Assembly (NCBI GenBank): GCA_019009955.1
Contig: CM032233.1
Span: 60,806,001-60,870,000, forward strand
Length of the DNA: 64,000 nt
Direction of reading: 5' to 3'
Source: Riptortus pedestris
Taxonomy: Eukaryota > Arthropoda > Insecta > Hemiptera > Alydidae
How positions within the stretch are numbered: position 1 is the first letter of the stretch; each line of letters begins with the position of its first letter. Positions 10,190-54,857 of this stretch are shown here, piece after piece. The notes under the pieces are model-generated. The model searched no databases and was not told where the DNA came from. It worked only from the letters and a program-made list of their open reading frames with translations. Both the position numbers and the translations under genes were made by a program.

Positions 10190-10732
10190 CTTATTCCAAG
10201 ATTAAATACGAAATATTCTTTTCGCCAGATCTTTATTACATGAGATACATGCGTTACTCACATATGTTGTTTGATGACGTCACCAATTAAGATTTTTTCA
10301 TGGATCGAAAACGTTTATTCCATTTATACCATACTCGATAATTAACCGTTTAGTGGACACTAAAGATCATATTTGTTAATGGCTGAAATGGGACCTGGAA
10401 TAGCAGGGGGTGGTTTAGAGGGAGGGGAATTCAAAAATTAAATATATCTCTGTTATTATGTGTTGGATCGGAAAATGTTGTTAACACATGATATAAATGA
10501 AGGAACAAATGTTCTTAGACTATTGATGCCCTACAATTGATCCATTATACATTTTTTCGTAACTAAAATTATTCGTACATTCTGGTTTTCAAGCTTTAGT
10601 AAGCCTCCCTCCCCCTTCTACTCATCGAATTTTTATTTAAAACTAGAGAATGTATGTTGAGATGGTTCCAGTAGTGTGTGATATCAGCGCGTGGGAAATC
10701 GGCTTCGTTTACGCAGCCCCTGATTGACGGAC
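10190..10732 (-). mobile_element. Family A (Helentron-like) element, 5' portion
   Basis: The sequence ends with the family A 5' terminus on the minus strand (plus-strand order GGGAAATC, TTTACGCAGCCCCTG, GACGGAC). The body has the family's conserved order: ACTCGATA, GGCTGAAATGGGACC, a G-run, GAATTC, ATATCTCTGTTATTATG. It belongs to a subtype with a TGACGTCA palindrome (10275-10282). The 3' terminus is missing. It directly adjoins the next copy across GTTTT. Confidence 0.7.
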
Positions 10733-10737
10733 GTTTT

Positions 10738-10870
10738 AGCAGATTTTCTTAAGGGAAATCAGCTATTGAGGTCTTACTCATGACGCGATTTTCGAAAAAT
10801 TTCCTCAAATGTCCATCGATCCTTTTTAGGAGATTACGAAAATGAGGCCCGTTCAAAATTTTATATATAT
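10738..10870 (-). mobile_element. Family A element, 3' terminus
   Basis: It starts with AGCAGATTTTCTTAAGGG and continues with TATTGAGGTCTTACTCATGA and ATGTCCATCGATCC, the hallmark 3' terminal block of family A read on the minus strand. It runs into a short TA tract where a family B end is inserted. Confidence 0.75.
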
Positions 10871-10871
10871 A

Positions 10872-10990
10872 CTAGCTAAGGTAACCGGCTTCGCTCGAGA
10901 AATCATTTGAGGCTGAATGATTATGGCATTTTTTTTGGCAAGGCTTCAATGTGTACAACTACACTTCCCGTCTGGGCGCATTGTTATCCC
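10872..10990 (-). mobile_element. Family B (Helitron-like) 3' end fragment
   Basis: CTAGCTAAGGTAACCGG followed by CTTCGCTCGAG and ATTTGAGGCTGAATG matches the 3' end of family B in reverse. Read on the minus strand it is a short CCGG-type hairpin, an 8-nt spacer and CTAG, followed by T. Only about 120 bp match the other copies. Confidence 0.6.
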
Positions 10991-11489
10991 GTGAGGGTCA
11001 GGCAGGGGACTTATGGAATAGAAATTTTAGTTCTGAAGAATAAATGTAAATAAGTCCCTCTTCACTGTTTGACTCACCATGAATAATTTAAATCATAATC
11101 ATGGATATCATTTATTATAATTAAATATTATCTATAATGTACATATTTCCTGTCAAAAACCAATCCGAGCTTGCTTATATACAATTATGTACATAATAAT
11201 GGAGTAGAAAGCAATATACAACATTTCACAGGAAATAAGTTAACACGATTAACTGTGTTAGCCTCCCGTCCTGCTTGAATGTTATCACCATTGATCTAAA
11301 CAAGTTACTTCTTCAAAGCATTGAAAATTTCGAATTTTTTAGTTATTTATATTCCTATATAGTAACTTATATTTATATTTTATCCTGGTGTAAATAAATA
11401 ACAGTAGGATCCTAAAAATAATTTAATTTATATTGTAAAAACGAGGTGAGGGAAAGAGATTGTAGCAATCCGCTCCCGCAACTTCATAT

Positions 11490-11935
11490 CAGATTGAGTT
11501 CAAACGCATATTGTCTTTTTTTATAATGGTATTACCAAGTAACGTTTATCATGCGAGATACCAGTACATTCGTTGTGTTATGACGTCATCAATTAAGATT
11601 TTATATTCTTGTTTCGAAAATGTTTCTTTAATCCATACCATACTCGATATGTAACCGTCTCAGTCAATAATAATGACCATATTTGTTATTGTAAGATATC
11701 GGAAATGGAATAGTGGGGGTATAGAGGGAGGGGAATTCGAAAATTCAAAATATCTCTGACATTGTGAGTCAGATTGTTAAAATGTTATAGAACCAATATT
11801 GTTAAACTATTGATGCTCTAGAATTGATTGAATTTTTTCGTAACTGAAATATTAAGCTAGTAAGCCGTGCTTTCTTGTTTTTGTCAGTTTATACAGTCAG
11901 AGTTAGTTTCCACAGACCCTGCGTGATGGTTTTTA
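11490..11935 (-). mobile_element. Degenerate family A copy, TGACGTCA subtype
   Basis: The order of motifs matches the copy at 10190: TGACGTCA (11581-11588), ATACTCGATATG, GGAGGGGAATTCGAAAATTC, ATATCTCTGAC and TTAAACTATTGATGC. It ends with a worn 5' terminus (CAGACCCTGCGTGATGG). DNA at 10990-11490 is unassigned. Confidence 0.55.
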
Positions 11936-12297
11936 TACATATATATTGTTTTATTAACGCTCTAGTGATAGCATTTTTTTTTTAAATCGTTTTGTGCAAA
12001 AAGAAAGATCAAGTTCCTTAATGGAAGAAATCGGTCCTGAGAGAGGGGAATTTCGAAAATTTGGAATATCTCCGTTACTATACTTAGGATCAAAACATTG
12101 TACATAACCAATCTTATTTCAAAATTACTATAAATGTTAGGTATATATTTTCTATTTCTTGAATATTATTAACGGAGATATTTGGATTTTTTAATTTTCA
12201 TTCTTAAGTAAACCCCCACCCCTACTCATGTTATTTCAACAATGAGCTGTTATTCCACGAACCACTTTATTCTAATCTTGTATCAAATGTTTTGTAT
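11936..12297 (-). mobile_element. Family A internal fragment
   Basis: It contains AACGCTCTAGTGATAGC, AAAGATCAAGTTCCTTAATG, ATATCTCCGTTACTAT and AACGGAGATATTTGGATTTT in the usual family order. Both termini are missing; the next copy begins at 12301 after TTTT. Confidence 0.65.
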
Positions 12298-12300
12298 TTT

Positions 12301-12453
12301 AGCAGATTTCCCTTAAGGGAAATCTGCTATTGAGGTTGTGCTCATGACGGAATTTTTGAAATTTTTCTTCAAATGTCCATCGATCCTACCTAGTAGATGA
12401 CGAAAATGAGGTCCGTTCAAAACTGTATATATATACCTATATATATCAATATC

Positions 12454-12503
<50 letters not shown>

Positions 12504-13229
12504 TATATATTTGTCTGTTACCGCTCTAGCGGTCGCAATTTTTGTTTGATCGTTACCAAACTCGATATTTAGTCGTTTTATGTAAAAAGAAAGATCAAGT
12601 TCGTTAACGGCTGAAATCGGATCAGTGGGAGGGGGGGTTTAGAGGGGAGGATTTTCAAAAATTCGAAATATCTCCATTATTATGCATCGGATCGAAAAAT
12701 TGTATATAACCAATCTTATTGAAAATTAAATTTACTATAAATATTTTTATATATGTTTATTCTCTATCTTGAATATTAACCGAGATATTTGCATTTTTCA
12801 GTTTTCAGTAAACCGCCACTTCTACTCATGTTACGTAAACAATACTCTGCTACATAATAAATCACATTATTGGAAGTTTAAATACCAAAAATGTTATTCA
12901 AGAGACCTTTATTATACGAGATACAAGCAAATATTTTCTGGTGATCCCCCCCATCTTAAAGTTTTAGACTACTAAAATTTTATTGATTGAGATAACAATT
13001 ATTCTGACTCATTATTAATTACAGTACTAGAGGTGAGGCGGGCCGACCAGTTTGATTACACTTCTAACCTAACGCTTCCTGTCGGCAGGTTATTGAAATT
13101 GGATGAAACATTTCTTATTTGTGTTTGTATTTATTCACGGTGTTGTTGTGTTACCAGTATGTATATTTATCTATTTCTGAACTTCACGAGGGAAGTCTGC
13201 TTAGTTTATGCAGCCCCTGCGTGACGGAC
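12301..13229 (-). mobile_element. Full-length family A (Helentron-like) element
   Basis: This 929-bp copy has both termini. On the minus strand it starts GTCCGTCACGCAGGGGCTGC and ends in a palindromic hairpin (GATTTCCCTTAAGGGAAATC type) plus CTGCT. The word GCAGATTTCCC near the 5' end recurs inverted at the 3' tip, giving offset (asymmetric) terminal repeats. The core is a TA microsatellite (about 12455-12500). It is flanked by T-runs on both sides. It codes for nothing and would depend on a helper. Classing it as Helentron-like rests on structure alone. Confidence 0.75.
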
Positions 13230-13231
13230 TT

Positions 13232-13690
13232 TTTTTATTTTTTGTATAAATAAATTATCATTATTGATCTGGAGAGTGTTTAGGTTATCTGTACGTCTTC
13301 ATATTTTATATGTTAACTATTGTTATTATATAAGGACAAATCGCATTCAGGAGTGGTATGTTCTGATTGAGACCATTAAATTTGGAGTCAGAAATGTAAT
13401 TTGTCATATTTTCAAATCTATGACATATGTACGTTATTCTTTAATTACACAGACACATTATTTCAGGGGAAAAATATGTGGACGCTCTACGTCGAAGCGT
13501 TATTGTTTTAACTAAATGAAAATAGTATGAAGAACAAATGTCTTGCTACTGCTGACTTACACTCTATACATTAAATGGTCTCTAGTTGCAAACATCCAGT
13601 AATTTGATTGGATATTGTGATACCACCTCTTACTAAAAGCGGCATATTCTGGCAGTTTAAAACAAATAATTCCTCGGAATGCGATATTCC
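13232..13690. other. No gene recognised
   Basis: An 83-codon frame (13264-13515) matches nothing I know. No repeat is recognised. Confidence 0.5.
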
Positions 13691-14800: not shown

Positions 14801-14897
14801 AAATAAAGAACTACGCAACAAGTAACCTTTATTAACTGAACTCATAATCATAATCAAACATATGTTCAAGTAACATTCACCATTTTAGAAAATAAAG

Positions 14898-15472
14898 TCA
14901 ACCACGCAGGATCTGCGTAAACTAAGTAGATTTCCCACGTACGGAGGAATAGAAACTAGGGTATAATGAAAACTGAAATATTTGAGTTACAAAAAAATGC
15001 AAAAAAACACAATTAGGACAAATTTCAGCCAATAACGAATATGACCTTTAGCGTTGACTGGATTGGATAAATATCGAGTACGGTATAGATCAAGTAAACA
15101 TTTTCGAGACAAAAACTTAAAATCATAATTGATGACGTCATCACACAACTCATTTGCATCAATCACATCTAGTAATCTTCTAATGACAAACAATATTTGG
15201 AAATTAAGCTTAGAATAATATGATTCATAATATGACGGCTTATTATTAATATGACGTGAGTAGGTGTGGGGTTTACTAAAGGCTGAAAAATAAAAAAATC
15301 CAAATATCTCGGTTAATATTCATGATTCAGAAAATATGGATATAACAACATTTATAGACAATTAAATTTACAATAAGTTGGGATCTAATTAATTTTTGAT
15401 CCTACTCATAATAACGTAGATATTCAGAATTTTCGAAATTCTCCTCTCCACTAACCCCCCCTCCCCTCGAGC
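14898..15472 (+). mobile_element. Family A element, 5' two-thirds (TGACGTCA subtype)
   Basis: It begins with CACGCAGGATCTGCGTAAAC and AGATTTCCCACGT. It has TGATGACGTCATCA near 15131, two body modules, AATATCTCGGTTAATATTC and a C-run near 15455. The TA core and 3' terminus are missing; unrelated sequence starts at about 15473. Confidence 0.65.

Positions 15473-16212: not shown

Positions 16213-16278
<66 letters not shown>
16213..16278. repeat. (TA)n microsatellite
   Basis: Pure TA dinucleotide run of about 60 bp, preceded by a short CA run. Confidence 0.95.
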
Positions 16279-18177: not shown

Positions 18178-18843
18178 CGTAAACTAAGCAGATTTCCCAT
18201 GTGAAGTTTTACAATAGAGAAATCTGCATACTGGTAACACAACACCACCGTGATTAAATACAAACGGTAATGAGAAATCTTTCAGTTAATTAAAATAAAT
18301 TCCCAACTGAAACGGCTTCTGAATTGTAAGAATAATTTATATTATTTTATATAACTCAAATTTTAGTAGTCCAAGAACTAAAGAAGGGGGGGGGGCGGAT
18401 GAACAGAACGTATTTGCATAAATCTCACAAAGTAATGAAGGTAAGGTAAGGTTAGAAACGACAGGTAAGGTTAGAAGAAGCTTCCACCTGAGCCGAGCAG
18501 TTACGAAAACGACTGACCTAATCCAAACTATACCCGACCACAGACTTCATAAAAATGCAAATATCTCGGTTAATATTCAAGATAGAGAATAAATGTATTA
18601 AATTTACCATAACAATATTTATAGTAAATTTAATTTGCAATAAGATTGGTTCTATACAATTTTTCGATCCGATGCATAATAACGGAGATATTTTGAATTT
18701 TCGAAAATCCCCTCTCTAAACCCCCCCTCCCTCTAGTCCGATTTCAGCCATTAACGAACTTGATCTGTCTTTTTAGATGAAACGATTAAATATCGAGTTT
18801 CGTAACGATCAAACAAAAATTGCGACCGCTAGAGCGTTAACAG

Positions 18844-18907
<64 letters not shown>

Positions 18908-19027
18908 TTGAACGGACCTCATTTTCGTCATCTCCTGGGTAGGATCGATGGACATTTGAAGAAAGTTTTCGAAATTCACGTCATGAGTACGACCTCAATA
19001 GCTGATTTCCCTTAAGGGAAATCTGCT
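18178..19027 (+). mobile_element. Near full-length family A element
   Basis: The first bases of the 5' tip are lost, but TAAACTAAGCAGATTTCCC, the internal AGAAATCTGC and ACACAACACCACCGTG follow. The TA core lies at 18848-18902. The 3' block (ATCGATGGACATTTGAAG, GAGTACGACCTCAATAGC) closes with a perfect palindrome GATTTCCCTTAAGGGAAATC (19002-19023 region) and CTGCT, followed by AAAA. This is the best example of the 3' hairpin in + orientation. Confidence 0.75.
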
Positions 19028-20866: not shown

Positions 20867-20869
20867 TGG

Positions 20870-24004: not shown

Positions 24005-24160
24005 ATGGATCCACACAAAACCGCTTGTATTGCTATAATTTTGGCTTTAGCTACAAAACGGCGAGTAAAACATAAACGTTGGATGAAGGAGTGGTTAAAA
24101 AAACGTGAACAGTATTCTCATATTTTGTTATTGAATGAAATTAGAGACACCGAAAAATAA
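24005..24160 (+). pseudogene. Harbinger transposase, N-terminal fragment
   Basis: A 51-codon frame starts at ATG 24005 just inside the left TIR. It contains KHKRWMKEWLKKREQYSHI followed by LLLNEIR, matching the R-W-...-W-...-R...L--E-R region near the start of HARBI1-like DDE nucleases. The frame stops at 24158-24160, and the DDE domain that should follow is absent. It is therefore a truncated remnant of an internally deleted element. Confidence 0.7.
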
Positions 24161-24164
24161 AACA

Positions 24165-24435
24165 ACATAATTTAAAAGCATTTTACTTACTTTTGAGTTC
24201 CCAAGGTCAACAGGTTGCTCAAAATTGTTAATAAATTGCAATGCGTGTAAAACCCACGAGGACGGTGAATATACATCGTCGGCTCCAGCCCCTGATCTTG
24301 TGGAGTCCTCTATTTTTAGCAGATTTCCCTTAAGGGAAATCAGCTATTGAGGTCGTACTCATGATGCGAGTTTCGAAAAATTTCTTCAAATGTCCATTGA
24401 TCCTACCCAGGAGATGACGAAAATGAGGTCCGTTC

Positions 24436-24493
<58 letters not shown>

Positions 24494-25256
24494 CTGTTAA
24501 CGCTCTAGCGGTCGCAATTTTTGTTTGATCTTTACCAAACTCGGAATTTAATCGTTTTATGTAAAAAGGAAGATCAAGTTCGTTAATGGCTGAAATCGGA
24601 CCAGTGGGAGGGGGGATTTTTGAAAATTCAATATATCTCCGTTATTATGCATCAAATCGAAAAATTATATAGAATAAATCTTATTGCAAATTAAATGTAC
24701 TATAAATATTGTTCTATACATTTATACTGTATCTTGAATATTAACCGAGATATATTCTGCGTGTGGTCACCAGTAGGCTGTTCGGACTTTCCGCCGAGAG
24801 CTCTGGCGGCCGTTTCTATAACTATTCGTCCCACGTGAATAGGTTTAGAGGTTAGGTTAACTGTTTTTTGGGGCTAGAAACTACAGGGTTATTACGCCCT
24901 AAATAATGTTTTAGGTTTAGAGGTTTCTTACTACTACAGTTGTTATTAGGCAGATTTCTCTATTGTAAAACTTGTGGGAAATCTGCTTAGTTTACGCAGC
25001 CCCTGCGTGACGGACTTTTTTTTAACTCTTTTCGGTAGTTACATCTGAGAGTATTAATTTTACGTCTGACGTCAGATATCGTGGCTCTAGGTTTGCATTT
25101 TTCGTAGACTGACAGCAGTTTCACGAGTGCGGCATTCCTTTTATTTTTATAATTTGAATCTGAAGGATTCCATAATGCTGGTAATTCTTCGTACATTGAT
25201 ATAAAATATTGCAAAACATCACTGGTTTCTACACAATCACTCTCCGGAGCCGACAT
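24165..25256 (-). pseudogene. Harbinger-associated MADF protein gene, split by family A insertion
   Basis: On the minus strand the frame starts at ATG 25256 (MSAPESDCVETSDVLQYF). It carries a MADF domain: ELPALWNPSDSNYKNKRNAA, then a helical stretch ending in NYRKELKK at about 25020. The frame then enters the family A element (25015-24318). Beyond it, coding resumes in the same register with EDSTRSGAGADDVYSP and FINNFEQPVDLGNSK, the expected tail of this family, up to a donor-like GTAAGT near 24190. MADF/Myb-type partners of Harbinger bind DNA and bring the transposase to the nucleus and to the ends. The insertion makes this copy non-functional. Confidence 0.8.
24318..25015 (-). mobile_element. 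Full-length family A element inside the MADF gene
   Basis: A 698-bp copy with both termini: AGCAGATTTCCCTTAAGGG at the plus-strand left end and GCAGCCCCTGCGTGACGGAC at the right. The TA core lies at 24443-24489. Because the MADF reading frame resumes on the other side, the boundaries are confirmed to within the flanking T-run: the site was a run of A on the coding strand. This is the best evidence for insertion into poly-T/poly-A. A subtype-specific segment (TTTCCGCCGAGAGCTC) is shared with 30030 and 31310. Confidence 0.85.
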
Positions 25257-29599: not shown

Positions 29600-29780
29600 T
29601 TACGCATAGTAACGGAGATATTTCGAATTTTCGAAATTCCCCCCTCTAAACCCCCCTCCCAGGTCCGATTTCAGCCGTTAACGAACTAGATTTTTTTTTT
29701 TTTACATAAAACGATAAAATACCCAGGTTGGTGAAGATTAAACAAAAATTGCGACCGCTAGAGTGTTATCAGACAAATAT
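29600..29780 (+). mobile_element. Family A internal fragment, + orientation
   Basis: It contains TAACGGAGATATTTCGAATT, a C-run, GTCCGATTTCAGCCGTTAAC and TTGCGACCGCTAGAG, up to a TA core. Both termini are missing. It faces the next copy head to head. Confidence 0.65.
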
Positions 29781-29811: not shown

Positions 29812-30159
29812 GTGTCTGTTAGCGCTCTAGTAGTCGCAATTTTTGTTTAATCTTCACCAAACTCGGTATTTTATCGTTTTATGTAAAAAAGAAAAAGATT
29901 TTCTTTGGAATTTGAAATATTTCCGTTACTACACTTCGGATCGAAAAATTTCATTGTATATTAACCAAGATATTTGCATTTTTATTAAGTGTGTGTAGGC
30001 AACGGTCGAGATGAGATCGGCTAAGGACGGTTCTATTCGTTTCCGCCGAAAGCTAGTTCGGCGGTTTCCGTAACTGTTCGGCTGTCGTATGAAGATTTCT
30101 CTGTTGTATAACTTCATGTGGGAAATCTGCTTAGTTTACGCAGCCTCTGCGTGACGGAC
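29812..30159 (-). mobile_element. Family A element, 5' half, - orientation
   Basis: From TGTCTGTTAGCGCTCTAG through ACCAAACTCGGTATTTTATC it mirrors the preceding + fragment across a short TA tract, forming an inverted pair (29701-29774 with 29814-29886). It ends with the 5' terminus TTTACGCAGCCTCTGCGTGA-CGGAC. The subtype segment with TTCGTTTCCGCCGAAAG is present. Confidence 0.7.
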
Positions 30160-31165: not shown

Positions 31166-31653
31166 GTCCGTCACGCAGGGGCTGCGTGAACTAACCAGAT
31201 TTCCCACGTGAAGTTTTACAGTAGAGAAATCTGCACACAGTTGTAACAGTAGTAGTAACGAATCTCTAAACCAATTTCATTAGTGCCGAACCGTTACGGA
31301 AACGACCGAACTAATATTCGGCGGAAACTCACGAATAGAACCGACATCAGCCGATCTCATCGCGTGTGTTATCCGCACACATATAATAAAAATGGAAATA
31401 TCTCAGTTAATATTTAAGATATAAAATAAATGTATATAACAATATCTGTAGTAAATTTAATTTCCAATAAGATTGGGTCTATACAAGGTTTCGGTCCGAC
31501 GTATAGTAACGGATATATTTCGAATTTTCGAAATTCCCCCCTCTTACTCCCCTCTCACTGGTCCGATTTCAGCCATTAACGAACTCGTAACGATCAAACA
31601 AAAATTACGACAGCTAGAGCTTTAACAGACACACACACACACACACATATATA
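31166..31653 (+). mobile_element. Family A element, 5' two-thirds
   Basis: It has the 5' tip GTCCGTCACGCAGGGGCTGC, AGATTTCCCACGTGAAG, the subtype segment (ATATTCGGCGGAAACTC), ATATCTCAGTTAATATTTAAG, a C-run and TTTAACAGACACACAC. The TA core is replaced by CA and TA repeats into which a family B start is joined. No 3' terminus. Confidence 0.7.
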
Positions 31654-32122: not shown

Positions 32123-33015
32123 GTCAGTCTCGCGGGGGCTGCGTAAACTAAGCAGATTTCCCTCGTGATGTTTAACAATAGATAAATCTACAAACTGGTA
32201 ACACAACACCACCGTGAATATTAAGTCAGTAAATACAAACGATAATAAGAAACCTCTCGACGGAATGCATCTGAAATGTAAACAAACAGTTCTGCCAACT
32301 TCTTACCGGAAAGAAAAACAATTACTGAAATATATCTGAATATAACGCATTAATTTGATTGAAAACTATTTACTATATCTATTAGTACTGTAATTTATAA
32401 TGAATCAGAATAATTTTTATCTCAATCAATCAAATTTTAGTAGTACAAGAACTTCAGGAGGGGGGGGGTCACCATAACATATTTGAAGTTATCTCGTGTA
32501 ATAAAGGTCTCTTGAAAACAATATGTGGTATTTAAGCTTCGAATTATGTGGTTTATTACATTACAGAGTATTGTTTATGTAACACGAGTAGAAGTGGGGT
32601 TTGCTGAATGCTGAAAACTGAAAAATGCAAATATCTCCGTTAATATGCAAGAAAGGGAATAAATGCGTACATTTATTTTGCAATAAGATTGGTTCTATAC
32701 AATATTTTGATCCGACTTATAGTAATGGAGATATTTCGAATTTTCAAAAATCCCCCCTCTTAACACCCCCTCCCACTTGTCCGATTTCAGCCATTAACGA
32801 ACTTGATCTGTCTTTTTACATAAAACGACATTAATCGAGTTTGGTAACGAACAAACAAACGACCGCTAGAGCGTTAACAGACAAATATATATATAATTTT
32901 GAATGAACCTCATTTTCATCATCTCCTTGGTAGGATCGATGGGAATTTGAAGAAATGTTTCGAAAATCGCGTCTTGAGTACGATCTCAATAGCTGATTTC
33001 CCTTAGAAATCTACT
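32123..33015 (+). mobile_element. Full-length family A element
   Basis: An 893-bp copy. The 5' tip is GTCAGTCTCGCGGGGGCTGC, followed by ACACAACACCACCGTGAATA, ACCGGAAAGAAAAACAATTAC, a G-run, GCAAATATCTCCGTTAATATG, a C-run, CCGCTAGAGCGTTAACAGAC and a very short TA core. The 3' block ends TGATTTCCCTTAGAAATC-TACT; the hairpin has lost several bases. T/A-rich flanks. Confidence 0.75.
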
Positions 33016-33270: not shown

Positions 33271-33618
33271 GTCCATTACGTTGGGGCTGCGTTAACAAGC
33301 AGATTTCCCGCGTGCGTTACGTATTTGCATCTCAAAACGTAAAAGTTCAATGAGAACAATATTTTGTATTTAGGCTTCTAAAAAGTGCTTCATAACAAAG
33401 ACTAAGATACTTAACTGAAGGCCAACAACTAAGAAATGCAAATATCTCGGTTAATAATCAATATAGTGAAGAAACATACATAACAATAATTATAGAACAT
33501 TACATTCTTAATAAGATTGATTTTATATAATTATTCGATCAGACGCGTAATAACGGAGATATTAAGATTGCTCGAAATCCTCCCCTCTATCCCCCCCCCC
33601 GCCCACTGGTCGGATTTC
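33271..33618 (+). mobile_element. Family A element, 5' part
   Basis: It starts GTCCATTACGTTGGGGCTGC, has AGCAGATTTCCCGCG and GCAAATATCTCGGTTAATAA, and ends in a C-run and CACTGGTCGGATTTCC. Sequence then switches to a LINE fragment. Confidence 0.65.
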
Positions 33619-33870: not shown

Positions 33871-34392
33871 TTTCTTTCTTCTTTACAGTTATTTTGTTTG
33901 CATCCCAAAGTTCCTTTTAGCAGATTGAGAATCAGTTATTGAGGTCGTACTAATGAGGCGATTTTCGAAATTTTTCATCAAATGTCCATCTTACCTAGGA
34001 GATGACGAAAATGAGGTCCGCTCAAAACTGTATATATATTTGTCTGTTAACGCTCTAGCGGTCGCTATTATTGTTTAATCGTTACCAAAGTCGATTAGTC
34101 GTTTTATGTAAAAGGAAAGATCAAGTTCGTTAACGGCTGAAATCGGACCAGGGGAGGGGGGGTTTAGAGGGGGAGAATTTTGAAAATTCGATATATCTCC
34201 GTTACTATACGTCGGATCGATAAAATGTATATAATAAATCTTATAGAAAATTAACTGTACTATAATTATTGTTATATACATTTATTCCCTATCTTGAATA
34301 TTAACCGAGATATTTGCTCACGTTACATAAACAATACTCGGCTATGACCTTGATAACCCCCCCCCCCCTTGTTATGTTTTTGGACGTCTTAA

Positions 34393-35791: not shown

Positions 35792-36114
35792 TTAAATTTG
35801 ATTGATTGAGATAAAAATTATTCTGATTCATTATAAATTATAGTAATAATAGATATAGTAAATAGTTTTAAATCAAATTAATTCTTTATATTCAGATATA
35901 TTTAAGTAATAGTTTTTCTTTCCGGTAAGAAATTGGCAGAACTGTTTGTTTACATTTCAGATGCTTTCCGTCGAGAGGATTCTTATTATCGTTGGTATTT
36001 GCTGACTTAATATTCGCGGTGGTGTTGTGTTACCAGTTCGTAGATTTATCTATTGTTAAACTTCACGCGGGCAATCTGCTTAGTTTATGCAGCCCCTGCG
36101 TGATGGGCTTTATT

Positions 36115-36430
36115 TGTTTGAACAGGTAGGATAAATTATGTTACTGAAATTACTATTTTATTCATTAAAAGAAATTATATTCTTATTATAATTATAATAA
36201 TTACTTTGTTGTACTAAACCCACAAAGGTTCGCTTTAATTGATATATTTTAATAAGTCATTAGGATCCGGAAATTAGTGTTCACTAGTTAGAAACAGATT
36301 ATCTTCCTCAGCATCGCTACAAGCTATTTGAGCCGCATCATAACATTCTGCCCATCTAATCGAGTATTCTTTGGATTTTGAATGAGTGAGAATTAAGTAC
36401 AGAAGAAAAAAATATATATATACTTGTATA
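36115..36430. other. No gene recognised
   Basis: I see no supported feature. Confidence 0.5.

Positions 36431-36466
<36 letters not shown>
36431..36466. repeat. (TG)n microsatellite
   Basis: TG run of about 34 bp in the place where family A copies normally have their TA core. Confidence 0.9.
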
Positions 36467-36469
<3 letters not shown>

Positions 36470-37344
36470 TTCCTGTTACCATTCTCGCGGTCGCATTATC
36501 GCATATATCGTTACAACACGTTATATAAGAGTTTCATGTAAAACCAAAGATTAAGTTAACGGTTGTAATCAGACCTGGGTGGGGGGGGGGAGTTTAGGTG
36601 GGAATTACGAAAATTCAAAATTATTATACGTAGGAAAAATCGAAAAATTTTATACAACTAATCTTACTGCACATTTAGTGTCCTATAAATGTTGTTATAT
36701 CCATTTTCTCTCTTTCATGAATATTAACTGAGATGTTGGCATTTTTTTTTAGTTTTCAGATTCAGTAAACCCCCAATCCTACTCATACCATATTAACAAT
36801 AGTCTGTCATGTTCATATCGTGAGCCAATTTTTTCGAAGGTTAAATACTAATTATAACTTTCATTGAGCTTTTTCTGAGTGAGGTACATAAAAAATAAGT
36901 TGTGTGATGTCGTTATCTTAGAAGATTTTACGTTCTTAACTCGAAAATGTTTATTAATTCTATTACGTACTCGATATTTAGACGTTTCAGACACCACTAA
37001 AGATTGTATTCGTTAATGGCTGAATTCGGACAGAGGTTGTGGTTGGGGGGGAGGGAGGGTTAAAGAGCGGGAATTCGAAAATTCAAAATATCCCCATAAT
37101 TACGAGTCGGATTAAAAAATGTTATAGAGCCAATTATATTAAACGATTGATGGCTGAGTTACGTGTTTTTGTAACTCAAGCATTAAGAGAGTTATTCTCA
37201 CATTCTTGTTCTCAGCCTTCAGTAAACCCCCAGTTATTATCATCAGATATAATTTAGAAATAGAGAATATATGGTGAGATCAGTAGTATGTTGTACGAGC
37301 ACGGGGGAAATCTGCTTAGTTTACGCAGCTGCTACGTGAAAGAC
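36467..37344 (-). mobile_element. Family A element, two-module form, 3' end missing
   Basis: After the TG core it reads CCTGTTACCATTCTCGCGG, a G-run and ATATTAACTGAGATGTTGGC. A second body module follows (TACTCGATATTTAGACGTTT, GGCTGAATTCGGACAG), then the 5' terminus GGGGGAAATCTGCTTAGTTT and ACGCAGCTGCTACGTGA. Two consecutive body modules also occur near 10.2-12.3 kb. Confidence 0.65.
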
Positions 37345-41519: not shown

Positions 41520-42466
41520 AGCAGATTACCTTTAAGGGATATGAGGTATTGAGGTCGTACTCATGAAGCGATTTTCGAAACATTTCTTCAAATGTCCATC
41601 GATCCGACCCAAGAGATGACGAAAATGAAGTCAGTTCAAAATTATATACATATTTGTCAGTTTGCGCTCTAGTGGTCGCAATTTTTGTTTGATCGTTACC
41701 AAATTTGATATTTAAACGTTTTATGTACAAAGAATGATCAAGTTCGTTAATGGCTAAAATTGGACCAGCGGAAAGGGGGGGGGGTTAGAGGAGGGAGTTT
41801 CGAAAATTCGAAATATCTCCGTTACTGTATGTCGGATCAAAAAATTGTATAAAACTAATCTTGAAAATTGAAAGATCTATAAATGTTGTTCTATACATAT
41901 TATCTTTATCATGAATATTAACCGAGACATTTGGATTTTATAGTTTTTGGCTTTCAGTAAACCCCCACTTTGCTCATGTCATATTAACAATAACCTGTTA
42001 TATCATGAAACACTTCATTACAAGGTTAAATACCAAATATTTTTTTTCATTGAACTTTTACTTTGTGAGAATTTCTTTTGTTCTTGGATTACTAAAATTT
42101 GAATGATTGAGATAAAAATGATTCTGATTTTTTACAAATAACAGCACCAGCTGTAGCAAATAGTTTTCAATAAAATTAATATATTATATTCAGATATATT
42201 TCATTAATTTGTTTTCTTTCTGATCTAGAATAGTTCTATCTACCTATTCAGGTCTGTTTGTTTACAATTCAGACGCTTTCTGTTGTAGAGATTATTAACT
42301 TATAAATTGACTGAAAGTCGTCATTTCTTATTATCGTTGGTATTTATTCACTTAACATTCACGGTACAAAAATAACGGTAAATAGTGTTACCGGTATGTA
42401 TATTTATCTATTGTAAACCTTCGCGTGGGAAATATGCTTAGTTTACGCAGCCCCTGAGCGACGTAC
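41520..42466 (-). mobile_element. Full-length family A element
   Basis: A 947-bp copy with 3' terminus AGCAGATTACCTTTAAGGG and 5' terminus TTTACGCAGCCCCTGAGCGA. The TA core is reduced to ATATACATA. The whole body follows the family order, including a G-run, GTAAACCCCCAC, and ACGGTAAATAGTGTTACCGG near the 5' end. TTTT lies on both sides. Confidence 0.75.
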
Positions 42467-43885: not shown

Positions 43886-44003
43886 AGCAGATGTTCCTTC
43901 AGGAAAATCAGCTATGGAGGTCGTACTCATGACGAGATTTTTGAAAGTTTTCCACAAATCCCCAACGATCCTACCCAGAAGATGACGAAAATGAGGTTCG
44001 TTC

Positions 44004-45106: not shown

Positions 45107-45149
<43 letters not shown>

Positions 45150-45531
45150 CTGTTACTTCTCTAGTGGTTGCAATTTTTGTTTGATAATTACCAAGCTCGA
45201 CATTAAAACGTTTCACACAAAACTAAAGGTCGAGTTGATTAATGACTTACATGGAACCAATGGGAGTGGGAGTTTAGAGGGAGAGCATTTCGAAAATAGG
45301 AATTATCTCTGTTATTGTACGTAGGATCGAAAAATGTTACATCATGTTAAGCTATTGATGTTCTACAATTATTGTTCTATTTTTTTTTTCTTAACTTAAA
45401 TTTTAAGCGAGCTATTCACGTATTCAGCCTTCAGACATAGAAATAGAGAACATGCGGTGAGATGAGATCATGAGTGTGTTTACCAACACATGGGAAATCT
45501 GCTTAGTTTATGCAGCCACTGCGTGACGGAC
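43886..45531 (-). mobile_element. Family A element interrupted by family B
   Basis: The 3' part (43886-44010) has AGCAGATGTTCCTTCAGG, TATGGAGGTCGTACTCATGA and a TA tract. The 5' part (45113-45531) resumes with a TA tract, TTGTCTGTTACTTCTCTAG and the body, ending TTTATGCAGCCACTGCGTGA-CGGAC. Family B fills the gap, so the family A copy is older. Confidence 0.8.
44051..45112 (-). mobile_element. Family B (Helitron-like) element nested in a TA core
   Basis: Read on the minus strand, it opens TAACCTCTGTCTGTACATTG, has TTTCGCGAAATTTCACG and GGCTGAACC, and two to three units of the 299-bp internal repeat. It ends with a CCCTGGCGAAGCCGGG hairpin, GTATCTGAG and CTAG followed by T. Length 1.06 kb; no coding capacity. 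Confidence 0.75.
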
Positions 45532-45774: not shown

Positions 45775-46225
45775 TATAAGCTGTTATGCCATGAACCACT
45801 TTATTCTAAAGACTTAAAGACCAAATTTTCTTTTCGACGGACCTTTATAATTTAGGATACATGCAAATAGGTAGTGTGATGACGTTATCAATTGAGATTT
45901 CCTGTTCTATACTAGAAATTTTCATTAGATCTATAAGATACTCTATATTTGACCGTTTCATTGAACACTAAAGATTAAATTAGTTATTGACTGAAATCGG
46001 ACTAGCATTTAGGTATTGGGGAGTGAGATTCGAAAATTCAAAATATCACCGTTATTATGAGTCAGATGGAAAAATGTTATATGGCATGTCTCGTTAAGCT
46101 CTTGATGTTCTATACATTTTCTTTTATCTCAATTATTAAGCGAGTTATTAGTAATTTATTGCTCACTAGTGTGTAATATCACGTGGAAAATTTCTTTAGT
46201 TTACGCAAGCCCCTGCGTGATGGAC
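45775..46225 (-). mobile_element. Family A element, 5' half (TGACGTTA subtype)
   Basis: It has GATGACGTTATCAATTGAGA, TATTTGACCGTTTCATTG, GACTGAAATCGGACTAG and the 5' terminus TTTACGCAAGCCCCTGCGTG. It lacks the TA core and 3' terminus. Confidence 0.65.
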
Positions 46226-46398: not shown

Positions 46399-46549
46399 TC
46401 CCGTGGGAAGACAGCTTAGTTTACTGAGATGCTTGGTGGAGTTTTTCTAATTAATTTGTTCACTGGTGGTCTATGAAGCTCTAGTATTGTTTTGGTCCCA
46501 GCCCAGGCGTCTTCTAGTTTATGCAGCACCAGCGTGACGGACATTTTAG
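46399..46549 (-). mobile_element. Two short family A 5'-terminus fragments
   Basis: 46399-46440 (CGTGGGAAGACAGCTTAGTT) and 46507-46548 (CTAGTTTATGCAGCACCAGC, GTGACGGAC) are worn copies of the last 40 bp of family A, with no body attached. Confidence 0.5.
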
Positions 46550-46788: not shown

Positions 46789-48450
46789 CAGGGTGTCCCC
46801 AAACTAAACGGCCAAACTTCAGGGATCGATAGAGGATCAAAAAACTAAGAAAAAAAGTCCTCTGGCATATGCCTCGTTTTCGCTTCGTTTTTGAGAAAAT
46901 CACAAAAAACTGAAAATAGTTGTGCAAAAAGTGTATTTTTTTTTTAATAATGTATTTATATTACAAAAAAACTATTGGCTTTTTGAGTAAGCTTAATTTT
47001 TTAATTTACGAGGAGTAGATTTAGAAAACATGAATATTCTCACGCTTTCCTTATCAATAAAACGTCTAGGTTGAGTGTTTAAACTTAAAAAGAAAGGATT
47101 AAAACGTTTACTATCATTTTAATCCTTTTTGGGGGGAATCCAGCCTCTCATTCTCACATTAGTGGCGTTGCTAGTACTGTTCAGTGAAGTCAACAAATAT
47201 GGCTAGATTTACCAACGCTGAATACGCGGACAAAGTCTACGTCTACGGATTCTGCGATGGCAATGCACGTCAGGCAGTTCGGGAATATCGCAGACGGTTT
47301 CCTGACCGAGAAACCCCACACAGAGGTGTTTTTACCAGCACTTTCAGAAGGCTTCGAGAGACTGGGTCCTTCTCATGTAATCGTCGTGGAAACCGTATGC
47401 AGGCTCCGATGGAAGCTGACCTGAGGCGGAGGGAGAGGATACTGAGGCACTTCAATACCAACCCTAGTACAAGCGTCCGGAGAGCTGCTTCAGTTCTAAG
47501 CATACCAAAGACAACCATTTGGCTCACATTAAGGGCTGACTGCAGGCATGCTTATCATGTACAAAAGGTACAAAATTTAATACCCGCTGATTATCCCCGC
47601 CGATTAAATTTTTGTAATTGGTACAAAGAACAATTGCAAAACGATGTAAACTTAAGTTCGAAAGTAATCTGGACGGACGAATTGACTTTTACACGTGCGG
47701 GCTTATTCAATCAAAGAAACTACCACCTTTGGGCACATGAAAATCCCCGCGCTATTAGAGGATTTCACTACCAGCATGAGTTTTCTGTAAACGTGTGGGT
47801 TGGTCTTTGTTATAATCGCATAATAGGTCCCGTATTTTTACCTGCTCGACTTCACGCTGAAAGTTATCATCTTTTCCTGGAGAATGACTTACGGGCACTT
47901 TTGGAAGATATCCCTTTGGAAACAAGGCTTGAGAGCTGGTTTCAACTCGATGGTTGTCCTGCACATTACGGAAGGGGCGTACGAGAATGGTTGGACATCA
48001 ACTACCCAGGTCACTGGATAGGAGGTGGGCCGGTGCCTTGGCCTCCCCGGTCTCCGGACCTCACGCCACTAGATTTCTTCGTGTGGGGATACGTGAAAGA
48101 AAATGTCTACCGAGAGCCCGTCCGCACAAGGGATGACCTCATCGAGCGCATCAGAATGGTTTGCAACCAGCTCACCGCAGAACAATGTTTAGATGAAGTG
48201 CGATCTGTCAGTACGCGATGTGATGCGTGTATTGCAGCGAGAGGCCAGCATTTCGAACAACATTTACGGGGGTTAGTCTTTCAAGTCGTGTCGTACTTGT
48301 TAATTTACACGTGTCCTGCAGTCAGTAAATATTTCATATTCAGAGGTACATTACCCTCCTGACATTTAGGCCTCTCTTCCTGTTCATTATGAAAGAATGT
48401 ATTTCCAATGGGAAGCCGAGTAAGTACAACTTGTTCCCTTGTCAATTCTA
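46789..48450 (+). mobile_element. Mariner-type transposon, right end not found
   Basis: The left end is CAGGGTGTCCCCAAACTAAA directly after TA (46787-46788), followed by about 400 bp of leader and the transposase gene. The complementary right end is not found before family A sequence begins near 48440-48460, so the 3' TIR appears lost or displaced. The gene looks intact but mobility in cis is doubtful. Confidence 0.75.
47184..48362 (+). CDS. Mariner/Tc1-superfamily transposase, DD40D
   Basis: An uninterrupted 392-codon frame, the longest in the window. Residues 8-60 form a DUF4817-like helix-turn-helix (FTNAEYADKVYVYGFCDGNA, then AVREYRRRFP), and residues 75-115 a second one; both would bind the TIRs. 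The catalytic triad reads D165 (VIWTDEL), D256 (FQLDGCPAH) and D297 (SPDLTPLDFF). Forty residues lie between the last two, against 34 in classic mariner. HLWAHENP and WPPRSPD are further superfamily marks. The likelier start is Met6 (ATG 47199, better context). The last 25 or so residues are unlike the family and may be read-through. Transposase acts in the nucleus on the element's ends. Confidence 0.9.
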   Translation: MKSTNMARFTNAEYADKVYVYGFCDGNARQAVREYRRRFPDRETPHRGVFTSTFRRLRETGSFSCNRRGNRMQAPMEADLRRRERILRHFNTNPSTSVRRAASVLSIPKTTIWLTLRADCRHAYHVQKVQNLIPADYPRRLNFCNWYKEQLQNDVNLSSKVIWTDELTFTRAGLFNQRNYHLWAHENPRAIRGFHYQHEFSVNVWVGLCYNRIIGPVFLPARLHAESYHLFLENDLRALLEDIPLETRLESWFQLDGCPAHYGRGVREWLDINYPGHWIGGGPVPWPPRSPDLTPLDFFVWGYVKENVYREPVRTRDDLIERIRMVCNQLTAEQCLDEVRSVSTRCDACIAARGQHFEQHLRGLVFQVVSYLLIYTCPAVSKYFIFRGTLPS

Positions 48451-49685
48451 ATAGCCTCCCAACGGAAATAGACTGAATTGAAAGCAAACAGGTCTGTTAG
48501 AGTTGAACAGATAGATAGAAATATTCTTCACCGGAAAGAAAAACCATTACTGAAATATATCTGAATTTAAGAAATCAATTTTATTGAAAACTATTTACTA
48601 TATCTATTACTGTAATTTATAATGAATAAGAATAATTTTTATCTCAATCACTCAAATTTGTGTAGTCCCAGAACAAAAGACGGGGTCAACAGAACATATT
48701 TGCATGTATCGCGTATAATAAAGGTTTCTTGAAAATAATATTTAGTATTTAAAATTCAAATAATGTGGTCTATTATATAAAAGAGTATTGTTTATGTAAC
48801 ATGAGTAGAAGTAGTGGTTTACTCAAGACTGAAAACTAAAAAATGCAAATATCTCTGTTAATATTTAAGATAGAGAATAAATGTATATGCCAATACTTTT
48901 AGTACTTTTAATGTGCAATAAGATTGGTACTATTTTTGGATCTGAAGAATAATAGCAGAGATATTTCGAATTTTAGAAAATCCTCCTCTAAACCCCTCCC
49001 CTCCCCCTTCCACTGCTCTGATCTCAGCCATTAATGAATTGAATCTTTCTTTTTAAATTAAACGATTAAATATTGAGTTTGCTAATGATCAAACAATAGT
49101 TGCGACCGCTAGAGCGTTAACAGACATGTTGGAAAGAATTGTTGAGTATATCAATATTTCTACGCAAATTGCTTGCTTCATACATTGTTCCCGAAAAAAT
49201 GTATAAAGCAAAAGTTACTCTAAATAACAAAGTAAACAGTTTTTGTTATATGCACGATTGCCGAAAAACAAATGGAAAATAAAATATTTCGATTTTTTAT
49301 TTCAGACCTGCCTTATAACCCCCACTCCCGTTTGAACCTAAAAATTTTAATATAGCTTATAATCATGGATGAATTAATGCTTTCTCACATACCGAGCTTT
49401 GTTAAGGTCGGTTCAATCGTTAGTGCCCAATAAAATAGTTGGCTCCCGCTTTAGTTTTTAAGGTAACCCCCACTCCTGTTAGCCTCAGAGAATATTAATA
49501 CAGCCTAAAGTCTAAGATGGGCAGTAGTAATATACATACCAAGTTTCATAAAATTAGGTTCAGCCGTTTATGCGTGAACAAACAAACAAACAGACAGACA
49601 CCAAAGAAACAAAATGCAGTTATTCAGGTGTCTATGTGAAACGAAAAGTTATCATGAAAAAAATCAATGTACAGACAGAGGTTAC

Positions 49686-49757
<72 letters not shown>

Positions 49758-49847
49758 GATAGGACCTCATTTTCATCATTCCCTGGGTAGGATCTATGGA
49801 CGTGGAGTACGACCTCGATAGCTGATTTCCCTCAAGGGAAATCTGCT
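48440..49847 (+). mobile_element. Family A element with nested family B
   Basis: The left part (48440-49127) lacks the 5' tip and starts near CCTCCCAACGGAAATAG. It runs through ACCGGAAAGAAAAACC, AAATATCTCTGTTAATATTT, a C-run and CCGCTAGAGCGTTAACAGAC. The right part (49753-49847) has GGACCTCATTTTCATCATT and the 3' hairpin GATTTCCCTCAAGGGAAATC-TGCT. A family B piece and a TA tract (49689-49752) lie between. Confidence 0.7.
49185..49689 (-). mobile_element. Family B element, 5' part
   Basis: On the minus strand it opens TTGTAACCTCTGTCTGTACA and continues through GGCTGAACC and part of the internal repeat (CAGGAGTGGGGGTTACC). The hairpin/CTAG end is missing. Confidence 0.65.
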
Positions 49848-51814: not shown

Positions 51815-52566
51815 GTCCGTCACGCAGTGGCTGCGTAAACTAAGAAGATTTCCCTCGTGAAGTGTAAGAATAGATAAATCTACATACCGGTAACACAATA
51901 CCACCGTGAATATTAAGTGAATAAATACAAACGGTAATAAGAAATCTTTCCCCTCCCTACGCGAAGCGTCTCAAATGTATACAAATAGGTCTGCCAACGG
52001 TTCACCGGAAAGAAAAACAGTAATTGAATCATATCAGAATATAACATACTAATTTCATTAAAACTATGTACTATTCTTGTACTGGAATTTATAATGAATA
52101 ATTTTTAACTCAATCAATCAAATTTTAGTAGTCCAAGAATTTAAGACCGGAGGGGGGGGGGTCACAAGAACATATTTTCATCTATCTCGTATAATAAAGG
52201 TCTCTGGAAAACAATATTTGGTTTTTACGCTTCGAATTTTACGAGTATTGTTTATGTAACACGAGTAGAAGTGGGGGTTTACTGAAAAATGCAAATATCT
52301 CGGTTAATATTCATGATAGTGAATAAATGTATATAAAAATATTTATAGTAAATTTAATTAGCAATAAGATTTATTCTAAGCAGTTTTTCGATCCGACTTA
52401 TAGTAACGGAGATATTTCGAATTTTCAAAATTCTCCTCCTCTAAAACCCCATCCACTGGTTCGATTTCAGCCGTTAACGAACTTGATCTTTTTTTTTTAC
52501 ATAAAACGACCAAATATCGAATTTGGTAACGATCAAACAAAAATTGCGACCCCTAGAGTGGTAACA

Positions 52567-52610
<44 letters not shown>

Positions 52611-52742
52611 TATATATATAGTTTTGAACGGACCTCATTTTCGTCATCTACTAGGTAGGATCAAGGGCATTTGAAAAAAAAATTCGGAAATTTCGTCATG
52701 AGTACGACCTCCATAGCTGATATCCTCTAAGGGAAATCTGCT
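51815..52742 (+). mobile_element. Full-length family A element
   Basis: A 928-bp copy with both termini: GTCCGTCACGCAGTGGCTGC at the 5' end and CATAGCTGATATCCTC-TAAGGGAAATCTGCT at the 3' end. It carries ACACAATACCACCGTGAATA, ACCGGAAAGAAAAACAG, a G-run, a C-rich run and a TA core at 52570-52620. The flanking bases are A-rich on the left. Confidence 0.8.
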
Positions 52743-52775
52743 AATATCACTGTTAATACTCGAGTTAGAGAAAAA

Positions 52776-53160
52776 GTCCGTCACGCTGGGGCTGTGTAAA
52801 CTAAGGAGATTTTCCCATTAATGAAATGACACACTAGTTATGCCATGTCACCGTATATTCTCTATTTCTAAGTCAAAGGTTTCCTGCTTCTCTCCCGGTT
52901 CCCATATACAACTGTCTGAAAACTAAAAAATCTGCTAAAAATGCAAATATCACATCTAACATAAGATTCAGGGCACAAATCCATTGAACAAAAATTGTTG
53001 GTATATAAATTCGCAACTATCAGATAATAATAAAGGTTATATAAAATGTTTCGATTCATGGTTCTGATTCATAGTACCTGTAACTCTCAAACGTAAAAGT
53101 TCAATGAGACCAATATTTGATATTTAGTCTTCAAATAACGTGCTTCATAATATAACAGCT
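52776..53160 (+). mobile_element. Family A element, 5' half
   Basis: It starts GTCCGTCACGCTGGGGCTGT only 33 bp after the end of the previous copy and in the same orientation. The body is short and worn and stops at a TA tract. No 3' terminus. Confidence 0.6.
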
Positions 53161-53161
53161 T

Positions 53162-53163
<2 letters not shown>

Positions 53164-53222
<59 letters not shown>
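53164..53222. repeat. (TA)n microsatellite
   Basis: TA run of about 58 bp between a family A fragment and a Penelope-like end. Confidence 0.95.
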
Positions 53223-53225
<3 letters not shown>

Positions 53226-53229
53226 ACAT

Positions 53230-53480
53230 ACACACTGAAGATTTATGCACTGTCCATTTGTTATTCACAACTCTCCAAAGTAGAGTTGATGGCTGGGAGT
53301 AGCACAGATACTCTTAATTAGTTGAATAATAGAAAGGTATAACACATTGTAATTAACAAAGTTTCTCTAAATTTGTGTAGAAATAGCCCTTTGAGAAGGA
53401 GTGGTGGGCACTTGATACGCGTCGGGGTTGAAATAAATGGTTATATGAAGAAATTATTTTACTGATCTTATGGCACAAAA
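53230..53480 (+). mobile_element. Penelope-like terminal segment
   Basis: It starts GATTTATGCACTGTCCATTT and ends GGTTGAAATAAATGG, ATGAAGAAATTATTTTACTG, like the right arm at 21117-21205. Near 53386-53428 there is a hammerhead-like order: CCCTTTGAGAAGG, stem AGTG (53400-53403)/CACT (53409-53412), GATA in place of GAAA, CGCG (53418-53421), TC (53422-53423), GGGG. No coding sequence. Confidence 0.45.
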
Positions 53481-53792
53481 AACGTATACACACACAACAC
53501 ACACACACAACAATTGTACGAGAAATCTGTTAAAACATAAAGAATATCCAATAACTTTGGCCTGAATTATTATTTTCTTTGATTTGCCCTGAGGTGACTC
53601 GATAAAAATGTTATTAGCCTGTGAGGACAATGGCATAGATGTAGAGAATGAACTGCGGTCAGCCGCTGTGTTCCATCAATTGGAGGGCTTTAGCCTCCGC
53701 AAGTTCTTCCTCATTCACTTACCTCAAACATCTGGTTCCATACAATCGGTTTTGGCTGTCAACGTGATCCGACCATAACTGTCCGTCATTTT

Positions 53793-53846
53793 AGCAGAAA
53801 TCAGCTACTCAGGTTGTTCTACTCACTTTTCGAAAAAGTTCCTCAA

Positions 53847-53910
<64 letters not shown>

Positions 53911-54857
53911 GTAAAAACTCTATACGCCGCAATTTCTGTTGGATGATTATCAAATTCGATATTTATACGTTTTTATCTCAAACTAAAGGTCAAGCTTATA
54001 AACGGCTGAAATTGACGAAGGGAAAGGGGGATCAAAATAATTGTTTTTCGTCAGATCAAAAAATTTGGAATATGCAATCTAGTTATAATTCTCTATTTTG
54101 TTTTTTTTTATAGACTTTTTTTTATATCTTGAATATCATGCGAGCATTTCATTAAATATTTTATCAGGTGTATCATGAATACAGTCTATTTCTCCATCCT
54201 ATTTGCGGTGGGTCACACGTATTCCCAGTTTTTCTCATGGGAGTAATCAGGGTGTAGTAGAATTTATATTGCCAGCTATTGATAAGCTTGGTATTCGTAG
54301 ATTGTTGTGGTCGTGTTGGATTCATTGCTTAACTTAGCTAATTTGTCTGTGGTCATATTGAGTCCTTTGTCTTCCTGTTCTTGTAGCAAAAAAAAAATGT
54401 AATTTGCTTTTCTTGAAAATTGAGAATGCATATAGCGTCTTCAAATTGGGTAGGGAAAGGGTAATTGGAGCAGCAGTTCTGCATATTGCCCAGTGAAATT
54501 AGTATGTAAATAAAGTAATGTTTCTGGAAGAGTCTTGATTATGGCTAATAGCATGGAATACATTTCTGTTGAGACTGAACTGTAATTTACGGGGAGTGTT
54601 TTACTTACTCGAATATCATGCGAGACATTTGTATTTATTTTTCAGCCTTCAGTAAACTCCCACTCTGAACATCTCAGTTTTTTACCTTAATAATTGAGTC
54701 ACTAAAAGTCACAGTTCCAGCCACATTTCAATTTCTGTTTATAATATTGTTGTCTTACTGCGGGAGAAATACAAAATAGATGATGAGATGAGTTGACGAG
54801 TGCTTCATTCCAGCACTTGGGAAATCTGCTTAGTTTCCACGGTATTTGCGTGACGGT
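53793..54857 (-). mobile_element. Family A element interrupted by a LINE-like fragment
   Basis: The left part has AGCAGAAATCAGCTACTCAG, a TA core (53850-53909) and GGCTGAAATTGACG. The right part (54612-54857) has CAGTAAACTCCCACTC, ACTTGGGAAATCTGCTTAG and the 5' terminus. The interruption is bounded by a duplicated GAATATCATGCGAG (54131 and 54611). Confidence 0.7.
54150..54610 (-). mobile_element. LINE-like fragment (RNase H-like), with target-site duplication
   Basis: A 460-bp insertion between two copies of GAATATCATGCGAG(A)CATTT, a target duplication of about 19 bp as made by LINEs. A second, about 90% similar copy is at 60007-60472. On the minus strand, broken frames read SSVSTEMYSMLLAIIKTLPE and TTDKLAKLSNES, which resemble the glutamate motif and the AD-LAK end of LINE RNase H domains. 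The domain call is tentative; the duplication is clear. Confidence 0.5.

Follow-up and report, generated by a model that had tools for sequence, protein, structure and literature searches.

The stretch analysed here (the window, 64,000 bp) is C6:60806001-60870000 of the Riptortus pedestris assembly, which comprises 1,078,779,003 bp in 138 contigs. It carries many copies of one repeat, here called family A. We conclude, with little remaining doubt, that family A is a non-autonomous Helentron family (a HINE, DINE-1-like) with a probable helper, a rare 11-kb element of Rep/PIF1/endonuclease-like/USP type. Among named proteins, a 587-residue host ORF from one sampled locus is most similar to those of the bugs Ranatra chinensis (47%) and Nesidiocoris tenuis (49%), and its two top matches reach 61-67%; this points to a true-bug host.

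Family A in the window and in the genome

A preliminary description, read by eye from the window, had reported a repeated family between 10.2 and 54.9 kb. Pattern searches at up to three mismatches agree with it, giving 13 matches to the 20-bp tip and 5 to the palindrome, with a mean of 0.00 in shuffles for each. Blast with three queries (locus copy L003 and two window copies), with TA-like tracts masked, assigned 9,934 of the 64,000 bp (15.5%) to the family; counting the TA cores as well could plausibly bring this to the fifth or so given earlier. The matches span 10.2 kb to position 54,856, with none in the last 9 kb, and the statement that the first 10 kb are free of copies holds broadly, the exception being a lone weak match at 9,426-9,520. 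Copies with both ends are the minority: paired-end search recovered four, and blast together with alignment added one more (32123-33015).

The alignment contains all the parts that had been noted (two ends, C-run, TA core and hairpins). The polarity, however, had been reversed, with the GTCCGTC tip taken as the 5' end and the palindrome as the 3' end, an orientation in which the flanks are A-runs. In the corrected orientation the element lies between a run of T and TTTT, and begins with AGCAGATTTCCCTTAAGGGAAATCAGCT and ends with GGGAAATCTGCTTAGTTTACGCAGCCCCTGCGTGACGGAC; the aligned two-ended copies read AGCAGATTTCCCTTAAGGGAAATCAGCTATTGAGG after the T-run, then the TA core, then GGGAAATCTGCTTAGTTTACGCAGCCCCTGCGTGACGGAC before TTTT. 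A majority consensus was made from 34 two-ended copies shorter than 1,100 bp. In it the 5' subterminal inverted repeat (subTIR) is the 11-bp GCAGATTTCCC, 1 nt from the 5' end, and the 3' subTIR is GGGAAATCTGC, 29 nt from the 3' end (33 with TTTT). The two are inverted, at least 11 bp long and offset between the ends, as in HINEs. The 5' end also holds the inverted repeat GATTTCCC TTAA GGGAAATC, whose first arm lies within the 5' subTIR, the arrangement that characterises DINE-1; its DNA fold is better than that of shuffles (z -5.0). A 6-bp 3' hairpin, ACGCAG/CTGCGT, is predicted to form 7 nt ahead of the GGAC end, and the TA microsatellite core is another DINE-1 trait.

The family had been called a colony, a term that does not survive the genome-wide count. 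The exact 20-bp tip occurs 32,327 times on one strand and 32,409 times on the other, that is 64,736 times in the 1.08-Gb genome, and 0 times when written backwards; the places listed are the first ones, on C1. In 20 systematic 10-kb stretches of C1 (200,000 bp from this contig only, including 2,500 N) the family occupies 27,238 bp (13.6%), with matches in 19 of the 20 stretches and 0 matches to reversed queries. If C1 is typical of the genome, this extrapolates to roughly 147 Mb. Divergence from the consensus ranges from 4.6 to 20.9% among the 34 copies, with the closest pair 2.9% apart, and the family has therefore spread over some time; young copies are over-represented, since 18 of the first 28 loci, and others besides, either were selected by an exact tip or are situated close to one. 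At locus L001 a family copy is broken in its TA core by another insertion, which we take to be a pogo/Tigger-type transposon.

The probable helper element and its protein

A search with PF14214, in which 150 of 210 candidates were scored, gave 153 matches in the genome and none in any of 14 control genomes. The helper element read end to end is C1:5592620-5603592 (minus strand, 10,973 bp) and contains an open reading frame (ORF) of 2,413 residues at C1:5593711-5600949, also on the minus strand. The 40-nt 3' end of the family lies 1.09 kb downstream of this ORF, in the same sense and identical at 40 of 40 positions. Upstream of the ORF is the family 5' end (91.8-93.3% over 120-122 bp), followed by the family body and TA core, which match three HINEs at 81.2% over 735 bp, 88.9% over 449 bp and 84.8% over 784 bp. 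The HINEs compared keep the first ~450-760 bp and the last 40 bp of the helper, and look like deletion derivatives of it.

The 3' side was read at the five best-scoring helper loci among 63 matches, the lower-scoring ones being mostly broken, and at each of the five the family end is present and differs at no more than 1 of its 40 positions. Besides the copy above, these are one on C50 (a contig of 25 kb), which starts inside the TA core and where TTTTT follows the same 3' end, a third copy on C1 (ORF end 5583391; 1 mismatch), one on C22 (0) and a broken one on C7 (1). None of 200 shuffles of L050, one of these loci, came within 12 mismatches of the 40-nt end. An internally deleted helper copy in L011 has ORF pieces ~1.03 kb ahead of a family tip that differs at 1 position. 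The reading frame exceeds 2,400 residues at C1:5593711 and on C50, and has 1,850 at C1:5583391 and 1,318 on C22; uninterrupted endonuclease-USP regions number four in the genome (the read copy at 100% and three at 85-97%). Two helper copies stand in tandem at C1:5582300-5603592, with 10,320 bp between their ORF ends; the stretch read between them did not show where the second copy has its 5' end. As had been stated earlier, the window holds no helper: the helper protein has no tblastn match there at E values up to 1e-3, other Rep/helicases not having been searched for in it. A phage collection gave no lead, and neither did viral contigs searched for the tip or for a degenerate Rep motif.

The genome also harbours a canonical-looking Helitron family with many near-identical and often long ORFs. 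Two of its members, C2:72443391 and C2:72452079, form a head-to-tail tandem pair 8,688 bp apart, with an N-terminus that by eye resembles that of a canonical Helitron. This abundant group was considered as the helper and rejected, there being no family end in the 4.1 kb read between the members of this one tandem pair. The C1 pair that includes the helper read end to end is more diverged.

Pfam matches along the 2,413-residue protein are DUF6570 (445-575, 1.7e-21), Helitron_like_N (731-869, 6.7e-24), PIF1 (1370-1574, 9.8e-21), UvrD_C_2 (1777-1819) and a C-terminal UCH domain (2149-2408, 3.8e-18; PF00443, 69.5 bits). The USP domain retains its Cys and His boxes (SCYAN and GHY), which presumably hold the catalytic residues. 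Rep and PIF1 are encoded in one ORF, as in Helentrons, and the Rep motif RGSPHLH, within VEFQQRGSPHLH, holds the S of RG-S-PHxH that is given as diagnostic of Helentrons in the passages available from PMC4067079 (Thomas et al. 2014). An endonuclease-like region is inferred because the motifs HNVQSL, ETW, GDFN and SYHKPI align with a Parthenolecanium (scale insect) protein that bears PF03372, the two proteins being 37% identical over 2,152 positions. No ORF of replication protein A type was noticed in the ORF scan of L050-L051, in which small ORFs were not domain-searched.

A wider search with residues 700-2413 gave 200 relatives, of which the best 120 were compared. Among these 120, precomputed domains include USP (PF00443) in 3, OTU (PF02338) in 18 and VTD (PF04843) in 24. 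The USP region alone, used as query, found one protein, that of Parthenolecanium (E 2.8e-4). A profile of five C-termini detected USP-like sequence in six of the 120, namely P0121, P0122, P0150 and P0213 and remnants in P0140 and P0191; four of these six had built the profile, and only the two remnants are new finds, P0191 having a Pfam match as well. The closest parallels, compared as proteins, are P0121 (Parthenolecanium corni V9T40_004699) and P0122 (Planococcus citri LOC135841724), with 37-38% identity over most of the protein and a C-terminal USP-like domain like that of the helper; P0121 stops ahead of the His box and the USP of P0122 is below Pfam detection. In a FastTree phylogeny of 121 proteins the bug protein and these two scale-insect carriers form a clade with support 1.0, and the other carriers fall elsewhere; the domain has therefore been gained more than once or lost often. 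The other four, P0213, P0150, P0140 and P0191, are Helentron-type proteins whose sources include a springtail and two beetles.

Insertion sites and competing explanations

The bases before 5' ends (n=56) are TTTT in 40 cases, TATT in 6 and AATT in 2, and those after 3' ends (n=87) are TTTT in 65, with one TATT and one AATT. Consistent target-site duplications, which would have spoken against the Helentron assignment, were looked for and not seen: among 35 two-ended copies no identical flank pair containing a non-T base occurs at 2, 3, 4, 5, 6 or 8 bp, and flank identity lies inside the 95% range of shuffled pairings. No DDE partner with the same ends was seen either, no search having been aimed at one. 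When the joined flanks of the 35 copies were compared with the loci in hand, 13 had alignable places and four of these (L004, L010, L014 and L025) gave clean paralogous empty sites, the filled site being 4 nt longer in each. The L025 insertion is nested in family A itself, whose own site reads CCTCATTTTCGTCAT. At L004 the element stands between GCTATT and TTTTTT and the paralogues read GCTATTTTTAATTTC, with one T/A difference; at L010 it stands between GTAAT and TTTTTTT, and the paralogues have TATG or TAAG ahead of a TTTG repeat. Since the left side is not TTTT at these two sites, we argue that the TTTT belongs to the 3' end of the element. HUH elements such as IS608 show this asymmetry, the target lying against the left end and the cleavage motif being part of the right end. 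By the four clean sites, two of them discriminating, insertion is into a T-rich or TT target that is left unmodified; for Helentrons, the passages available from PMC4067079 describe a TT target, boundary Ts owned by the element and an unmodified target site.

A miniature inverted-repeat transposable element (MITE) whose DDE transposase duplicates TTTT on insertion would also give filled sites 4 nt longer and TTTT on both sides, as in 23 of the 35 two-ended copies. We consider it extremely unlikely and have rejected it, there being no duplication beyond T-runs: the TATT and AATT of the left flank are not mirrored on the right, no fixed target-site duplication emerged at any of the six lengths, and L004 and L010 already point to no duplication, subject to the T/A difference and the TTTG repeat. 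The asymmetric ends with two hairpins, and a same-ended partner that encodes Rep/PIF1, likewise do not suit a DDE element. A different objection is that the Rep/Hel ORF stands beside HINE ends by chance and that some other element, now perhaps lost, is the real helper. Chance neighbours are common where the family makes up 13.6% of the C1 sample and exact tips far outnumber uninterrupted ORF regions. This explanation is nevertheless very improbable in view of the position of the 3' end, in sense and ~1.0-1.1 kb after the ORF in five loci and in the deleted L011 copy. Moreover, the two helper 3' regions compared are 84.7% alike over 354 bp, on the 5' side the family body continues into helper sequence common to L051/L052 and L054, and the canonical-looking Helitron pair, which serves as a contrast, lacks such an end in the 4.1 kb read.

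The helper may be as described and its USP domain a functionless passenger, a gene fragment acquired by ordinary Helentron capture. Capture of gene fragments by Helentrons is on record in the part of PMC4067079 consulted, and the domain is cut short in the Parthenolecanium, Anthonomus and Folsomia relatives. On the other side, the domain is in frame and uninterrupted in four genome copies, with both boxes kept, and two hemipteran relatives in the same well-supported clade share a USP-like C-terminus. A passenger USP is a serious possibility, short of being the expected outcome. That the USP instead constitutes a third Helentron deubiquitinase class, perhaps recurrently recruited, whose activity would shield the transposition protein or reaction from ubiquitin-dependent removal, and that the helper drove the large HINE expansion from a handful of copies, is a tentative proposal that we hold, taken whole, to be rather unlikely.

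Several observations weigh against the identification of family A as a HINE family mobilised by this helper. Two of the 13 alignable sites (L027 and L044) do not fit a simple 4-nt gain, and seven are too diverged or partial to judge (L003, L016, L018, two in L030, L046 and one window site). The clean sites L014 and L025 are explained equally well by TTTT duplication, leaving L004 and L010 to discriminate, and of these the first has the T/A difference in its paralogues, while those of the second read TATG or TAAG next to a TTTG repeat. In the helper copy read end to end, GTTGTTTT and not TTTT follows the 3' end. The last 60 bp of the helper match the HINE consensus at 48 of 60 positions ungapped and two window copies at 43-44, and by this measure the helper and the window copies may be different subfamilies. 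The 3' hairpin is no better than in shuffles (z -1.2), and the 3' subTIR lies 29-33 nt from the end, against ~38-60 in the mite elements of PMC4067079, as far as its available passages go. In the same passages the second Helentron signature is F/Y, w/l/y/k, R; the helper reads YFR, a partial fit. Pfam calls no endonuclease in the protein at E values up to 5. Finally, movement itself was not observed, and mobilisation of the HINEs in trans by the helper is what we infer.

The combination of a same-ended Rep/PIF1 partner with the lack of non-T duplication supports the identification as non-autonomous and Helentron/DINE-1-like, in agreement with the preliminary description. With the HINE and DINE-1 elements of PMC4067079, again as its passages present them, family A shares 11-bp subTIRs, a 3' hairpin, a microsatellite, a T-rich target, boundary Ts, the lack of duplication and a same-ended partner, and with DINE-1 the nested 5' inverted repeat. 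It differs in the position of the 5' subTIR (1 nt from the end, as against 2-4 nt in the mite HINE) and, from published HINEs, in its abundance of ~65,000 exact tips. The likeness to DINE-1 seen here is one of structural plan, and the family is not classed as DINE-1 proper. The helper has the Rep, PIF1 and endonuclease-like order in one ORF and the RGSPH motif of the autonomous Helentrons in those passages, and departs from them in the USP domain behind the endonuclease-like region. Helentrons with OTU or VTD deubiquitinase domains have been published, with activity demonstrated for VTD (PMC9741609, in part), and the helper resembles them in having a deubiquitinase domain fused to Rep/Hel/endonuclease; its own is of the USP class, which is not among the Helitron domains named in the passages available from that paper. 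No USP-bearing Helentron is named in the titles and abstract openings searched, which is no proof of absence. The USP-bearing helper is a variant not found in that literature, and the HINE family is a new one of known type.

Copies in the window and the proposed life cycle

The copies and fragments are collected in Table 1. Between the first two entries a 3' end is followed head-to-tail by the next 5' end (10732 and 10738), which is compatible with rolling-circle behaviour, though weak evidence at so high a family density.

Table 1. Family A copies and fragments, in window coordinates.
Position	Strand	Feature	Basis
10191..10732	+	Copy fragments, 3' tip at the end (10709-10732)	
10738..10854	+	5' block of the next copy, head-to-tail after the tip ending at 10732, GTTTT between	
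11619..12243	+	Pieces of the body; weak likeness to a 3' tip at 11908-11931	
12301..13229	+	Two-ended HINE copy, long subfamily, 929 bp; T4 on the left, T7 on the right	
14897..15465	-	3' tip and body fragment	
18178..19027	-	Near-complete copy; 5' palindrome perfect, 3' tip gone	
24318..25015	+	Two-ended HINE copy, short subfamily, 698 bp; within A/T-run	
29602..29774	-	Body fragment, inverted relative to its neighbour	blast
29814..30159	+	Fragment with body and 3' tip	
31166..31628	-	3' portion of a copy, its tip perfect; without 5' block	
32123..33015	-	Two-ended copy, 893 bp; 5' palindrome shortened	
33271..33618	-	Decayed 3' tip and body	
33930..34317	+	Fragment with 5' block and body	blast
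35794..36806	+	3' part (tip 36085-36108) and additional body fragment	
37009..37344	+	Body fragment together with 3' tip	
41520..42466	+	Older copy with both ends, 947 bp; TTTT flanks on both sides	
43886..44003	+	5' block alone	
45148..45531	+	Body and 3' tip	
45814..46225	+	Body and 3' tip	
46515..46542	+	3' tip remnant	
48529..49847	-	Two-piece copy (48529-49125 and 49755-49847) with 5' palindrome; no 3' tip found	
51815..52742	-	Older copy with both ends, 928 bp; GATATT on the left, GTTTT on the right	
52776..52815	-	Remnant of a 3' tip; the 51815-52742 copy has its 5' end 33 bp away	
54818..54856	+	3' tip remnant, the rightmost family sequence found in the window	blast

The HINE at 24318-25015 interrupts a stretch (24100-25200) that, translated by eye, reads as putative MADF-like coding sequence on both sides. 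An uninterrupted 395-residue ORF at 47175-48362 (plus strand) has DUF4817 and DDE_3 above the Pfam cut-off and a sub-threshold Tc3-type helix-turn-helix; to judge from these domains it encodes a putative mariner/Tc-like transposase, unrelated to family A. The 186-residue ORF at 57059-57619 (minus strand) has no Pfam match and is, we assume, akin to the C-terminus of a piggyBac transposase. A long GT and then GA microsatellite at 63270-63700 was apparent from repetitive ORF translations.

In the life cycle that we propose for family A, a few helpers would sustain a swarm of derivatives in which the 5' block and the 3' end are preserved. Rep would recognise the hairpin ends, nick, and peel off one strand by rolling-circle copying, with the helicase unwinding and the 3' hairpin signalling the stop. 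The transferred strand would be joined to a T-rich target (TTTT or TATT) abutting the 5' end, and the 3' end would supply its own TTTT, so that no target duplication would arise.

A pattern first read by eye has in this way become a tested pair of helper and parasite, in which 64,736 exact 3' tips contrast with four uninterrupted endonuclease-USP regions, two of which belong to frames longer than 2,400 residues. The family makes up about one seventh of the sampled chromosome, and USP appears to be a further deubiquitinase class in Helentrons. The system is well suited to the study of rolling-circle amplification and of the repeated pickup of deubiquitinases by Helentrons.

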